Shown one piece after another: positions 3,580-39,597 of a stretch of DNA of 48,170 nucleotides. The stretch is from Flavobacteriales bacterium (GTDB lineage Bacteria > Bacteroidota > Bacteroidia > Flavobacteriales > Flavobacteriaceae): NCBI GenBank assembly GCA_026996605.1, contig JALWLE010000070.1:1-48170 (forward strand), in the 5' to 3' direction. Numbering within the stretch: position 1 is the stretch's first letter; each line of letters begins with the position of its first letter. The notes beneath the pieces are model-generated. The model saw nothing but the letters and a program-made list of their open reading frames with translations. It was not told where the DNA came from and ran no database searches. Made by a program: the position numbers and the translations under genes.

Positions 3580-3650
3580 ATGCGCACAATATTTAACTGA
3601 AACAAACAGTTAATATACTGAAATTTAACACCCAAAAACAAATTGTTATT

Positions 3651-3763
3651 ATGAAACCGACATGATTAAAATATATATTAAACACAACAAAACCTGTCCC
3701 GATTTTTGTAGGGAAAAATGATTATTTTAATCATCAAAGGTTATCCCTACAATAGGGAACCAT
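3651..3763 (-). repeat. Fold-back intergenic repeat, copy A
   Basis: This 113-base stretch, read on the minus strand, aligns almost end to end with 34634-34749 and partly with 24059-24126. It runs from ATGGTTCCC to GTCGGTTTCAT. It contains two mutually complementary arms built on ATGATTAAAATAATCAT and its inverse, so the whole can fold into one long hairpin. Orientation is opposite to the other two copies. It lies between the IPExxxVDY-like gene and the OmpA lipoprotein gene. Confidence 0.75.
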
Positions 3764-3787
3764 AATATTAAAATAAAAAATGAACAT

Positions 3788-4720
3788 ATGAAAAAAAGTA
3801 TTCTAAGTCTAGTTATTTTATCTGTTTTATCATCTTGTGTCAGCTCTAAAAAATATCAAGAGTTGGATGATAAGTACATAAAAATGCGTAGTGAAAACGT
3901 TGAACTAAAAGATCAATTAGATTCACTATCAAATAAACAAATGCGTTGTCAATCATCTTTGGATCGTTTGCAAATACAATATGAAAATTTGCAAAACAAA
4001 TATACAACACTGGATAAATTATACCGAGTTAAAGACGATGCATATAAAAAACTGCAAGCAAGTTATGAGGCACTCTCACAAAGCAGTAGTCAAACATTAG
4101 CCTATGAAGCAGAAAAAAATCGCAAATTATTAGATTCTTTAAATTATAAACAAAAAGAGCTGGCAAAAGAACGTGCGGCTTTAGATCAACAAATTAAAAA
4201 AATAAAACAATTAGAAGGTTTGATTGCACAAAAAGATGAAAAATTGAACAGTCTAAAAAATTCATTAAATCGAGCTCTTAATAAATTTAAAGATCAAGGT
4301 TTAAAAGTTACCGAAAAAGATGGAAAAATATACATTTCCATGGAAAACAAATTGCTATTTGACTCCGGTAGTTGGCACGTAAAACAAAACGGACGCGATG
4401 CCATAAAAACCATAGCCAATATTTTATCTATTAACCCCGATGTAGAAATAATGATTGAAGGACATACCGATAATGTTCCGTACCACGGTAAAGGAGCTAT
4501 TCAAGACAATTGGGATTTGTCTGTCAAACGCGCCACCTCAGTAGTAAGACAATTGATGAAAAACAAAAATATTGACCCAAAACGTTTAATTCCTGCCGGA
4601 CGCAGCAAATATTTACCGGTTGCTGATAACAGCACCCCTCAAGGTAGAGCCAAAAATCGCCGTATTGAAGTCATCTTAACACCACGTTTAGATGAAATCA
4701 TGAACCTAATAAACAACTAA
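3788..4720 (+). CDS. OmpA-family lipoprotein with coiled-coil stalk
   Basis: This 310-residue protein has a lipoprotein signal (VLSSC, lipid cysteine at residue 17). A long coiled coil follows from about residue 22 to 165, rich in K/E/L heptads. The C-terminal OmpA-like domain (about 185-300) has GHTDNVP, DLSVKRATSVVRQL and KNRRIEV, the peptidoglycan-binding signatures. It should be anchored in the outer membrane and grip the cell wall. It is 6 bases upstream of ugd and probably opens the polysaccharide operon. A role in envelope anchoring of the exported polymer machinery is only inferred from position. It could equally be a general envelope-stability protein. Confidence 0.88.
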   Translation: MKKSILSLVILSVLSSCVSSKKYQELDDKYIKMRSENVELKDQLDSLSNKQMRCQSSLDRLQIQYENLQNKYTTLDKLYRVKDDAYKKLQASYEALSQSSSQTLAYEAEKNRKLLDSLNYKQKELAKERAALDQQIKKIKQLEGLIAQKDEKLNSLKNSLNRALNKFKDQGLKVTEKDGKIYISMENKLLFDSGSWHVKQNGRDAIKTIANILSINPDVEIMIEGHTDNVPYHGKGAIQDNWDLSVKRATSVVRQLMKNKNIDPKRLIPAGRSKYLPVADNSTPQGRAKNRRIEVILTPRLDEIMNLINN

Positions 4721-19107: not shown

Positions 19108-19331
19108 GGCTCTATGTTGTTTTGTATGGGTAATAATAAATTAGGTTTAAGAATCATATAATCATGGTTATTATCTTTTTTATAATTTCACCCCTTACGG
19201 GGTTTATGTTTTTAACGTCATAAATTTTCTATAATTATATCACCCCTTCGGGGTTTATTAAATAAGCCCGAAGGGGTGACATTATTCTTTGAGATATTAC
19301 ATATATTACCCACCTAGATCGATATAGAGCC
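19108..19331. mobile_element. MITE-like element 1
   Basis: A 224-base non-coding element. Outer ends GGCTCTAT and ATAGAGCC are perfect inverted repeats. An inner pair, TGGGTAATA and TATTACCCA, sits at the same offset on both sides. A perfect 8-bp direct repeat flanks it. The outer parts match 22290-22459 closely. The centre differs and holds REP-like ACCCCTTACGGGGT and ACCCCTTCGGGGT palindromes, plus a 13-bp stem TCACCCCTTCGGG with its complement ending at 19279. The GGCTCT ends and 8-bp duplication resemble ISL3-family elements from memory. No transposase is encoded, so it would need one elsewhere. Confidence 0.82.
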
Positions 19332-19339
19332 AAATAAAT
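19332..19339. repeat. 8-bp target duplication, right copy, element 1
   Basis: AAATAAAT, identical to 19100-19107. Confidence 0.75.
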
Positions 19340-22289: not shown

Positions 22290-22459
22290 AGGGCTATGTT
22301 GTTTTGTGTGGGTAATAATAAATTAGGTTTAAGAATCATACAATCATGGTTATTATTTTTTTATATAATAATTAAACAAAGTCTTTGATCCCTAAAAATA
22401 TCTGGGGACATTATTCTTTGAGATATTATAATATTACCCACCTAAATCAATATCGAGCC
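22290..22459. mobile_element. MITE-like element 2
   Basis: A 170-base element related to 19108-19331. The first 70 or so bases and the last 50 or so match, including TGGGTAATA near the left and TATTACCCA near the right. The left tip has three changed bases (AGGGCTAT instead of GGCTCTAT) and the right tip reads ATCGAGCC. The centre is shorter and lacks the REP-like palindromes of element 1. It is flanked by its own perfect 8-bp duplication, so the two copies arose by separate insertions. It sits between asnS and coaD. Confidence 0.8.
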
Positions 22460-22467
22460 AAGAATTT
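22460..22467. repeat. 8-bp target duplication, right copy, element 2
   Basis: AAGAATTT, identical to 22282-22289. Confidence 0.75.
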
Positions 22468-23839: not shown

Positions 23840-23897
23840 TTATTTTTTTAAATCATTGTTGTCCGGTAAAGCTACCAATTTTTTAGAAAAAGCGAGG

Positions 23898-23929
23898 TTT
23901 GAAAAAATCGCCCCTCGCTATTATCTTTG
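23898..23929 (+). promoter_or_regulatory. Near-perfect promoter with no intact gene downstream
   Basis: TTTG at 23898-23901, a 20-base spacer, and TATCTTTG at 23922-23929, an exact Bacteroidota promoter. Arms AGCGAGG (23891-23897) and CCTCGCT (23913-23919) can pair around the -33 box. The ATG at 23959, 29 bases downstream, opens only an 11-codon frame. The restriction-modification gene starts 374 bases further on, so this may be its promoter or a leftover. Confidence 0.6.
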
Positions 23930-23958
23930 CATTTAGCAAAATTATAATTCAAAAAGAT

Positions 23959-24067
23959 ATGAGCAAAGATAAAAATTTTATCGAACAGCCGTGATACGGA
24001 ATTAGATTTAAAACAATTTTTCATCTGTTTTTTTTATTTTAACATCAATGTCAGATGTAACCTTTGA
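23959..24067 (+). pseudogene. Possible remnant of a gene start
   Basis: ATG at 23959 begins MSKDKNFIEQP and stops at 23992-23994. In the +1 frame from 23990 the sequence continues RDTELDLKQFFICFFYF and stops at 24065. Joined with one shift, the fragment resembles the polar start and TELDL-type entry into a membrane helix seen in some chain-length-determinant-like proteins, but that comparison is weak. The strong promoter just upstream and the fold-back repeat overlapping its end (24059) suggest a decayed gene. It may also be a short leader peptide. Confidence 0.35.
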
Positions 24068-24126
24068 TGATTAAAATAATCATTTCGTTGTGTGTTTAAT
24101 AATTATTTTAATCATGTCGGTTTCAT
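24059..24126 (+). repeat. Fold-back intergenic repeat, copy B (internally deleted)
   Basis: A 68-base match to 34634-34749 and to the complement of 3651-3763. It keeps AACCTTTGATGATTAAAAT and the right half to GTCGGTTTCAT, but lacks the left end and about 24 bases of the TCCCGA-TCGGGA loop. The two arms still pair. The rest of 24127-24303 is AT-rich with no feature seen. Confidence 0.72.
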
Positions 24127-24303
24127 AACTGATTAAATTACAATAAGTCTGTTTTAAAACTATTTTAAAATCTGTAGGACGTAATCTGTATAAGTTAAAA
24201 AATTGCTTATACAATATATAAAAAAATTACTGTTCTGATAATTTTTATAAATTAGCAGAAAAAAGTTAAATATATTAAACAAAAGAAAATTAGATATATA
24301 ATC

Positions 24304-34267: not shown

Positions 34268-34633
34268 TGGCGGCGACCAAAATTTATTCGGTTCATAAAC
34301 ATTTACTTACGAAAATTATCATTTGTAAATATTTGATATCGTTTATATATTTGATAATAAGATTATTATTAAAGTTTATTATTTCTATTGACTTTGCTTA
34401 TAATTTTATTGTATGGTGTTTTAAAGAATATTTTTATACATTATAATTCTACTTCTTAATCTAAAAATTAAAGAAGTTCAATTCTAAAGGTTTTCCCTTA
34501 TAAAAAATCAAGGTAATATCCCATTGATTAGTACTTTAATAAGATATAGTTTTGTTGTTATCAACAAAACCTAAAAGAATTTTAATAATTTAAAATGAGT
34601 AGTTTTTATCTGTTTATATTTTATTTTAATGTT

Positions 34634-34749
34634 ATGGTTCCCAACTATTGTCGGGATAACCTTTGATGATCAAAAAAATTATTTCTCCCGACAAAAATCG
34701 GGACAGGTTTAGTTGTGTTTAATAATTATTTTAATCATGTTAGTTTCAT
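34634..34749 (+). repeat. Fold-back intergenic repeat, copy C
   Basis: This 116-base stretch runs from ATGGTTCCC to GTTAGTTTCAT and is the most complete copy with 3651-3763. Arms ATGATCAAAAAAATTAT and AATTATTTTAATCATG can pair. A second inner stem is TCCCGACAAAAATCGGGA. The ends are not clean inverted repeats and I could not find a certain target duplication. Confidence 0.75.
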
Positions 34750-34880
34750 TTTTTTGAAATGGTTTACTTTATAGAATATTCAATAATTGAATTTAAAAAA
34801 ATGTGTGTTGTTAAAAATTCATAAAATTAGGTTTTTGGTTATGTATAAAGAATGGCGACATATAATTTCAAATCTTTTTG

Positions 34881-39250: not shown

Positions 39251-39520
39251 TTATTTACGTAAGCCCAGTTCTTTAATAATGTTTCGATATCGTTCAATAT
39301 CGTTGTTTTTCAAATAGTTTAAAAGACTGCGTCTTTTTCCTACCATTTTGACCAAAGCTTTTTCAGTGCCATAGTCGTGTTTGTTCTTCTTTAAATGTTC
39401 GGTCAAATGGTTGATGCGATACGTAAACAACGCAATTTGTCCTTCCGGTGAGCCGGTGTCTTTTTCAGATTTGCCGTATTTGGCGAAAATCTCTTTTTTA
39501 ACTTCTGGTGTTAAATACAT
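39251..39520 (-). CDS. rpsO: 30S ribosomal protein S15
   Basis: An 89-residue all-helical ribosomal protein. The rRNA-binding loop is visible in [33 protein letters not shown], and the following [21 protein letters not shown] is the family signature. It binds 16S rRNA early in small-subunit assembly. Length is normal. A good Bacteroidota promoter lies 47-77 bases upstream. It is followed by pnp on the same strand. Confidence 0.98.
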
Positions 39521-39566
39521 GCCAATATTGTTTTAAATGATTATTATGTATATTATTATCAAGCTG

Positions 39567-39597
39567 CAAAGATACAATAAATATTTTTATACACAAA
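39567..39597 (-). promoter_or_regulatory. Promoter for rpsO
   Basis: On the minus strand, TTTG (complement of 39594-39597), a 19-base spacer, and TATCTTTG (complement of 39567-39574). This is a full consensus match, 46 bases before the rpsO ATG. It abuts the MITE-like element whose left duplication starts at 39606. Confidence 0.7.

Follow-up and report, generated by a model that had tools for sequence, protein, structure and literature searches.

Short mobile repeats with a candidate internal guide at ATGAAA start codons in Bacteroidota

Do the fold-back repeats that lie between genes in this stretch of DNA move, or are they kept to control the genes beside them? The window, by which we mean the whole 48,170-nucleotide stretch analysed (Flavobacteriales bacterium, contig JALWLE010000070.1), holds three copies of such a repeat, which the original prediction had taken for a mobile or regulatory repeat family. 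The copies and their parts are listed here, with "guide" denoting a short internal segment whose pairing is considered further below.

3651..3787, plus strand: long-form copy (137 bp) adjoining the start of an OmpA-family lipoprotein gene (sequence, repeat search, BLAST)
3697..3714, no strand: nested GC-rich hairpin of the 3651 copy (recounted sequence)
3744..3758, no strand: second nested GC-rich hairpin of the 3651 copy, in place of the guide (sequence)
3788..3793, plus strand: ATGAAA, downstream border and start codon of ORF 3788-4720 (Pfam OmpA, PF00691)
24019..24024, minus strand: ATGAAA, downstream border and first codons of a 50-codon ORF (23872-24024)
24025..24126, minus strand: short canonical copy (102 bp; sequence)
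24052..24060, minus strand: guide TTACATCTG of the short copy (sequence; covariation in the family)
34604..34609, minus strand: downstream border hexamer of the 34610 copy, ATAAAA rather than ATGAAA (flank sequence)
34610..34749, minus strand: long-form copy (140 bp), the reported finding (sequence and borders; family match in its own genome)
34638..34657, no strand: nested GC-rich hairpin at the guide position of short copies (comparison with short copies)
34686..34703, no strand: second nested GC-rich hairpin, in the main-stem loop (comparison with short copies)

The three copies are real and intergenic, as had been predicted. A repeat search recovered the 90% complementary arms 3651-3755 and 34645-34749 together with a match at 24091-24128, and BLAST found the repeat elsewhere in the same genome at E = 3.6e-42 for the 3651 copy. 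The 24-base gap in the third match is genuine, the 24025-24126 copy being without the two GC-rich hairpins that are nested in the other two. Folding back was supported by z scores of -3.02 (24030-24136), -2.86 (3640-3775, minus strand) and -1.75 (34625-34760), and is clearest in the short copy. The predicted gene context was half right. The OmpA lipoprotein gene does begin, at 3788, right where the 3651 copy ends; neither the restriction-modification gene nor the histidine kinase that had been named, by contrast, lies in the direction in which the sense strand of its neighbouring copy points. The 24025 copy instead faces the 50-codon ORF on the minus strand, with an Endonuclease_NS gene beyond, and the 34610 copy faces an SSB gene. 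Orientation, described as variable, varies only relative to the contig and is fixed relative to the target ATGAAA.

Read on the strand opposite to the one presented, the short copy is ATGAAACCGACATGATTAAAATAATTATTAAACACACAACGAAATGATTATTTTAATCATCAAAGGTTACATCTGACATTGATGTTAAAATAAAAAAAACAG followed by ATGAAA, and 89 bp of it are identical to another copy in the same genome. Within its guide, CATCTG complements CAG|ATG at 24022-24027 and TTNCAT complements ATGAAA at 24121-24126. In the 34610..34749 copy both nested hairpins are present and the guide is lost; its border reads as a decayed ATGAAA, now ATAAAA, at which no ORF of at least 40 codons opens (34604..34609, minus strand). The two long copies of the window, with a GC-rich hairpin in the guide's place, are probably immobile. 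REP-like GC-rich hairpins inside elements, often at the guide, were seen at 34638-34657, 34686-34703, 3697-3714 and 3744-3758 and in loci L148-L155, L201 and L216; these hairpins, of the TCCCGAC..GTCGGGA type, read as a second repeat family that landed in the start-codon element.

Two further kinds of repeat or leader were observed in the window. The related blocks 19112-19333 and 22294-22461 resemble another MITE with inverted ends: they match over 69 bp (96%) at one terminus and over 31 bp (90%) at the opposite one, with TGGGTAATA and TATTACCCA lying close to opposite ends. At 39518-39574 (minus strand) lies an S15-Flavobacteria ribosomal protein leader (Rfam RF03161, 64.4 bits). Rfam covariance models gave no match at the elements themselves, either in the whole window at gathering score or in eight loci up to E 5.

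A genome-wide count had been proposed as a check, with few further copies as the outcome that would speak against a repeat family; this was looked for and not found. BLAST of 34620-34760 against its own genome gave 90 match rows at E <= 10, which were merged into places, and the 2.38-Mb draft (149 contigs) holds about 40 copies, a lower bound, since 40 of 78 candidates were scored. The element spans about 80-110 bp, or 137-140 bp with the nested GC hairpins seen in the window, begins ATGAAAC and ends TAAACA[C/G] before another ATGAAA. In this genome a short form of about 102-105 bp stands beside a long form of about 120-140 bp, which has one or two extra hairpins of the TCCCGAC..GTCGGGA type. 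Intact copies are built alike: ATGAAA is followed by an outer stem, with TTNCAT[C/G]TGACC closing its 3′ arm, then by an A-rich tail and TAAACA[C/G], up to the target ATGAAA. Of the 40 copies, 24 stop directly before an ATG from which an ORF of 50 codons or more runs (5/14 in L001-L014, mostly long forms, and 19/26 in the rest), and 16 precede no such ORF. Genes downstream include those for ribosomal protein L29 (rpmC), a class V aminotransferase (serC by sequence), Maf, an FAH-family protein and a class I/II aminotransferase (here called kbl).

Same-genus genomes were compared at five of these genes. At rpmC, all 11 relatives with both flanks are empty; a twelfth was left out, its contig stopping two bases before the start codon. 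Across this junction the genome's own sequence minus the element aligns at 82-91% identity with 0-2 gap bases, best with relative G006 (109/120, no gap). The serC site is empty in 7 of 9 relatives and occupied in G003 and G008. The element is absent at maf in 12/12 relatives, with weak upstream alignment in most. Among six relatives compared at the FAH gene, four are empty, G003 has a remnant and a full element in tandem, and G010 has a truncated element; the one relative compared at kbl is empty. The empty sites in sister species show that the element entered as a complete unit, precisely at ATGAAA, with this hexamer then present on either side. Because the ATGAAA start codon is left in place, the invaded gene stays intact. 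The 5′ ATGAAA may be borne by the element or duplicated from the target, and the border hexamers of deviating copies fit either.

Further signs of movement come from outside the genus. Wocania arenilitoris HMF6543, a member of the Flavobacteriaceae in another genus, has 37 matches to one copy, 11 of them at 100% and 12 at 97-99%, a recent burst; in 14 of 21 copies extracted from 27 loci, the ATGAAA begins an ORF of 77 codons or more. A strict set was also assembled, of occurrences 80-112 long that are bordered by ATGAAA on either side and have C or G at two variable bases (183 occurrences, 176 distinct, 161 unique, from which 61 dissimilar representatives were chosen). Units also occur in tandem with one ATGAAA in common, as three at 91-bp spacing in L233 and as two different variants side by side in G196; 8 of the 176 strict occurrences are tandem. 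As a separate observation, a serC-like gene of the window's genome (L037) and one of Wocania (L109, by resemblance) carry elements of different subfamilies at the start, which may, given the differing subfamilies, have been hit twice.

How far the family reaches was assessed with patterns of differing stringency. The ends-only pattern (ATGAAA, 65-95 free bases, AAACA[C/G]ATGAAA; counts by eye) matched 86 of 199 genomes of the family, a set with one genome per genus except for two from the window's genus, and part of these are chance matches inside genes. The richest were G018 (Wocania arenilitoris, 27), G160 (25), G096 (22), G196 (19) and G123 (17). A pattern of tail plus guide found at least 120 stretches in a collection of 84,980 species; among the 80 listed, 78 are labelled as Bacteroidota, their genera including Algoriphagus, Cyclobacterium, Lunatibacter, Psychroflexus, Labilibacter, Maribacter, Tenacibaculum and Chryseobacterium, one as "PVC group" and one as a Balneolales bin. 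In an even draw across the phylum the strict pattern matched 14 of 395 genomes, at least two of the 14 being chance-like. The family, with cousins of like anatomy in many Bacteroidota, is patchy in its distribution. Viral contigs held no strict-pattern match, phage records none to one Algoriphagus copy, and plasmid records none to one Wocania copy.

Could these be immobile leaders, or chance likenesses of A-rich gene starts? AAACA[C/G]ATGAAA alone can arise by chance, the end pattern also matches inside genes, and its reversed control matches 10 of the 199 genomes, once each. Against this stand the empty sites and the identical copies, and a control for the strict-type pattern gave no match in 13 genomes with up to 62 matches each (Agaribacillus aureus having the most). 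We give this explanation a negligible probability. The mobile half of the original prediction is upheld by the roughly 40 copies, the precise empty sites, the 11 identical Wocania copies and the tandem units, and there is very little doubt that the repeat is a non-autonomous mobile element that inserts at ATGAAA.

We examined the structure of the element in the 61 representatives. Frequent sequence blocks are ATGAAA, TTNCAT[C/G]TGACC and TAAACA[C/G], with CACACA and GG[GA]ATGATTA mid-element in many. The 5′ end pairs with a segment ending at CAT; many copies have one main stem and an inner hairpin, and no obvious separate pair of hairpins lies at the two ends in the manner of IS200/IS605. Pairing at stem positions 1-3, like part of the guide match, is fixed by the requirements of the strict search. 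At position 4, where the partner is left free, no standard pair occurs (A faces C in 39, A in 16 and G in 6), and positions 5 and 6 are paired in 55/61 and 58/61. At positions 7-13 both arms vary, each position showing 2-4 Watson-Crick types; there, 263 of 427 cells are paired, compared with 143 ± 9 after shuffling (maximum 176 of 2000 shuffles) and 81-118 when the arms are slid, in statistics that ignore kinship among the representatives. Tandem G.A/A.G replaces two pairs in 22/61 (shuffled 9.4 ± 2.2, maximum 18). The proposed covariation check came out in favour of the outer stem, which covaries across families, and uncompensated breaks in pairing, which would have counted against it, were looked for and not found.

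Which strand folds is less evident from these data. Predicted RNA energies are lower for the antisense strand (-15.2 vs -13.1 kcal/mol, p 7e-5) and alike relative to shuffles (p 0.54), and DNA energies are alike for the two strands. The sense stem has more A.C than G.U, but the tandem G.A pairs argue in the opposite direction.

A second kind of pairing involves the guide, TTNCAT[C/G]TG. The CAT[C/G]TG that immediately follows the stem is complementary to CA[C/G]ATG, made up of the element's last three bases and the target ATG, and TTNCAT also complements the element's own 5′ ATGAAA. One internal segment therefore complements both junctions and any ATGAAA. The variable guide base matches the last base of the element in 175 of 176 distinct occurrences where C or G was required at both, and when other bases are admitted as well, C..G or G..C accounts for 193 of 207. 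In a separate listing from other genomes, counted by eye, 134/150 agree and 16/150 break the match, mostly in one combination found in Agaribacillus and Algoriphagus resistens. In G234 and G242 a minority of copies carry a guide base and a last base that belong to different combinations (a GTG border with a CAG guide, for instance), as if subfamilies had swapped ends. Beyond the required hexamer, flanks show no strong base preference (148 upstream and 139 downstream, tandem borders left out), and the upstream flank shows no conservation. On the evidence of covariation, both the stem and the guide pairing are features of the family.

In IS608, a guide next to a hairpin pairs with the cleavage sites, the left guide selects the target TTAC, and insertion occurs 3′ to this short target, which stays in the left flank (PMC5934647). 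The element probably works in the same way. Its guide would pair in turn with the two ends of the element and then with a new target, so that one short sequence would set both cleavage sites and the target. It is somewhat probable that the internal segment acts as a guide in movement, and the two properties taken together, an ATGAAA target and an internal guide, are credited to one mobile element with the same moderate confidence.

Comparison with known systems places the element near several of them. It is like IS200/IS605 elements, as IS608 is described in PMC5934647, in its hairpin and in an internal segment that pairs with both junctions and the target; like them it inserts precisely and keeps a short target at the border (here ATGAAA, with empty sites), and its putative guide complements cleavage sites and target and covaries. 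It differs in having no internal transposase gene, one main stem and an identical border hexamer on both sides, and in that the Y1 loci inspected do not have ends matching it. Like REP sequences and REPtrons (TnpA-REP, RAYT), which PMC6006769 presents as thought to be moved in trans, it forms many short, intergenic, palindromic copies. It lacks their GT[AG]G foot, however, having ATGAAA / TTNCAT feet in the 61 representatives and fixed ATGAAA borders, and the RAYT genes found (L092, L097, L383) have other hairpins beside them. With MITEs it shares shortness, lack of autonomy, many copies and empty sites, but its ends are not mutual inverted repeats (ATGAAAC.. vs ..TAAACA[C/G]) and no parent transposon was seen. 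The Beggiatoaceae TAACTGA repeats are likewise intergenic, with a proposed regulatory role, but, as described in PMC4679880, they are short direct repeats of another phylum, with no guided hairpin insertion. Integron attC sites and self-splicing introns were set aside on grounds of end consensus, dispersal and size.

If the element is moved in trans, an enzyme encoded elsewhere would cut and join it, most likely a single-strand (HUH-type) transposase; we regard movement by such an enzyme as possible, at somewhat below even chances. The search for Y1 genes did not identify the enzyme. The Y1 loci inspected have other ends or repeats. Y1 genes (PF01797) occur in 16 of 27 genomes with at least three end-pattern matches, compared with 57 of 172 others (p 0.017), an association that may reflect only genomes rich in mobile DNA, and in 8/8 Cytophagales/Bacteroidales genomes checked. 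They are missing from 11 of the 27 element-rich genomes and were not found in the incomplete bins G007 (83% completeness; many similar copies) and G002.

These counts bear on the proposal that a known Y1 protein, a resident IS200 TnpA or a RAYT, moves the element as its REP or MITE. The association and the eight Cytophagales/Bacteroidales genomes favour it, as does RAYT subclass 2.6, which is mostly from Bacteroidetes and has atypical flanking structures with copies elsewhere (PMC6006769). Motifs of that subclass, as given there, are fitted by L097 and L383, and nearly by L092, but all three loci have other GC-rich hairpins, and not element copies, beside the RAYT-like gene. A motif filter kept 30 of 53 Y1 loci, of which one has an element tail nearby; L097 in addition has a diverged copy about 0.6 kb away. 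IS200 ends in the window's genus differ from those of the element, and comparison of ends or flanks gave no match for IS200 and RAYT genes as direct parents. Together with the ambiguity of the association, this makes a known Y1 mobiliser quite unlikely. In L097 itself, the RAYT-like gene (1423-1983) has its own GTAG-type hairpins, and the diverged element copy (2603-2681) precedes a TetR-like gene. Elsewhere, Y1 genes in L086, L093, L096, L369, L370 and L372, with motifs like those given for subclass 1.2 in PMC6006769, adjoin runs of other short palindromic repeats.

No autonomous version, carrying a gene inside the element, turned up among the collected loci. These contain 187 5′ ends, 61 of them without a strict 3′ end nearby, and the 18 listed of those 61 are altered or displaced ends, tandem units or unrelated matches.

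IS110 elements have no terminal inverted repeats and use two-sided targets, and movement in the IS110/IS1111 group needs a DEDD transposase and a guide (bridge or seek) RNA. The same element could be served by a transposase of this type, with its own transcript as guide RNA, or by a tyrosine or serine recombinase. It too has an element-encoded segment complementary to the junctions and no terminal inverted repeats, and recent copies occur in bins without a Y1 match. Unlike those elements, it shows no two-sided target recognition, its upstream flank being unconserved. Another class of enzyme is on these grounds unlikely, if a little less so than a known Y1 protein. The view that the element is a distinct class of Bacteroidota mobile DNA, in which a 9-base guide sets ends and target, the enzyme is an unrecognised one and insertion is suited to start codons, is put forward tentatively, as the less probable side of the question.

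Insertion at start codons can be accounted for without any mechanism that seeks them. ATGAAA begins 13 of 46 selected window ORFs. Element sites open an ORF of at least 40 codons in 132 of 170 cases (tandem borders left out), compared with 15 of 25 window ATGAAA that do not break a gene (Fisher p 0.08), and start-codon seeking was set aside as not needed: a hexamer target and the loss of harmful insertions suffice. Insertions inside genes would be lost by selection, and those at start codons would persist because the gene still has an intact ATGAAA, now behind an A-rich leader.

Bacteroidota are a phylum without Shine-Dalgarno signals. Initiation in Flavobacterium johnsoniae benefits from adenines at -3, -6, -12 and -13 and from low structure (PMC6847099); the element gives A at -6 but C at -3. 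In predicted RNA folds of the 176 sites, the start codon has a median unpaired probability of 0.05 with the element vs 0.41 without, and the stem of guide and CA[C/G]ATG exceeds a probability of 0.5 in 103/176. A start codon predicted to be paired argues against a harmless insertion. It also favours, as does the covariation of guide and last base, a second account of the repeat as mainly a translational control leader, descended from an old mobile ancestor and now kept for regulation, whose stem hides the start codon. Divergence among 53 genus copies is nevertheless 0.073 in the guide and 0.090 in the tail spacer, compared with 0.008-0.026 in the outer-stem arms, in a set defined by matches to GATTATTTTAATCAT, which biases that arm; a guide more divergent than the stem arms speaks against upkeep for gene control. 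In addition, 16 of the 40 own-genome copies precede no ORF, the target genes in the lists compared have no common function, and sister-species orthologues do without the element. We consider the leader account improbable, and the regulatory half of the original prediction is not demonstrated by the predicted pairing, given the more variable guide. The idea that overlapping mini-ORFs hand ribosomes on through the element was dropped on reading the copies, since reading frames and stop codons are not the same from one family to the next.

The open-access papers searched contained no account of an element of this kind. If the mobile reading is right, a common and apparently undescribed element stands at the translation start of many Bacteroidota genes, with rpmC, serC and maf as examples in the window's genome and up to 62 strict-pattern matches in a genome. 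This would affect the annotation of leaders and start sites in Bacteroidota, make sister species a source of natural comparisons between leader-bearing and leaderless versions of one gene, and lead to an enzyme that is directed to its target by base pairing. Were the element indeed a distinct class, the displaced ATG would be paired away while a new A-rich initiation region is supplied, and a changed guide, last base and border would retarget it.
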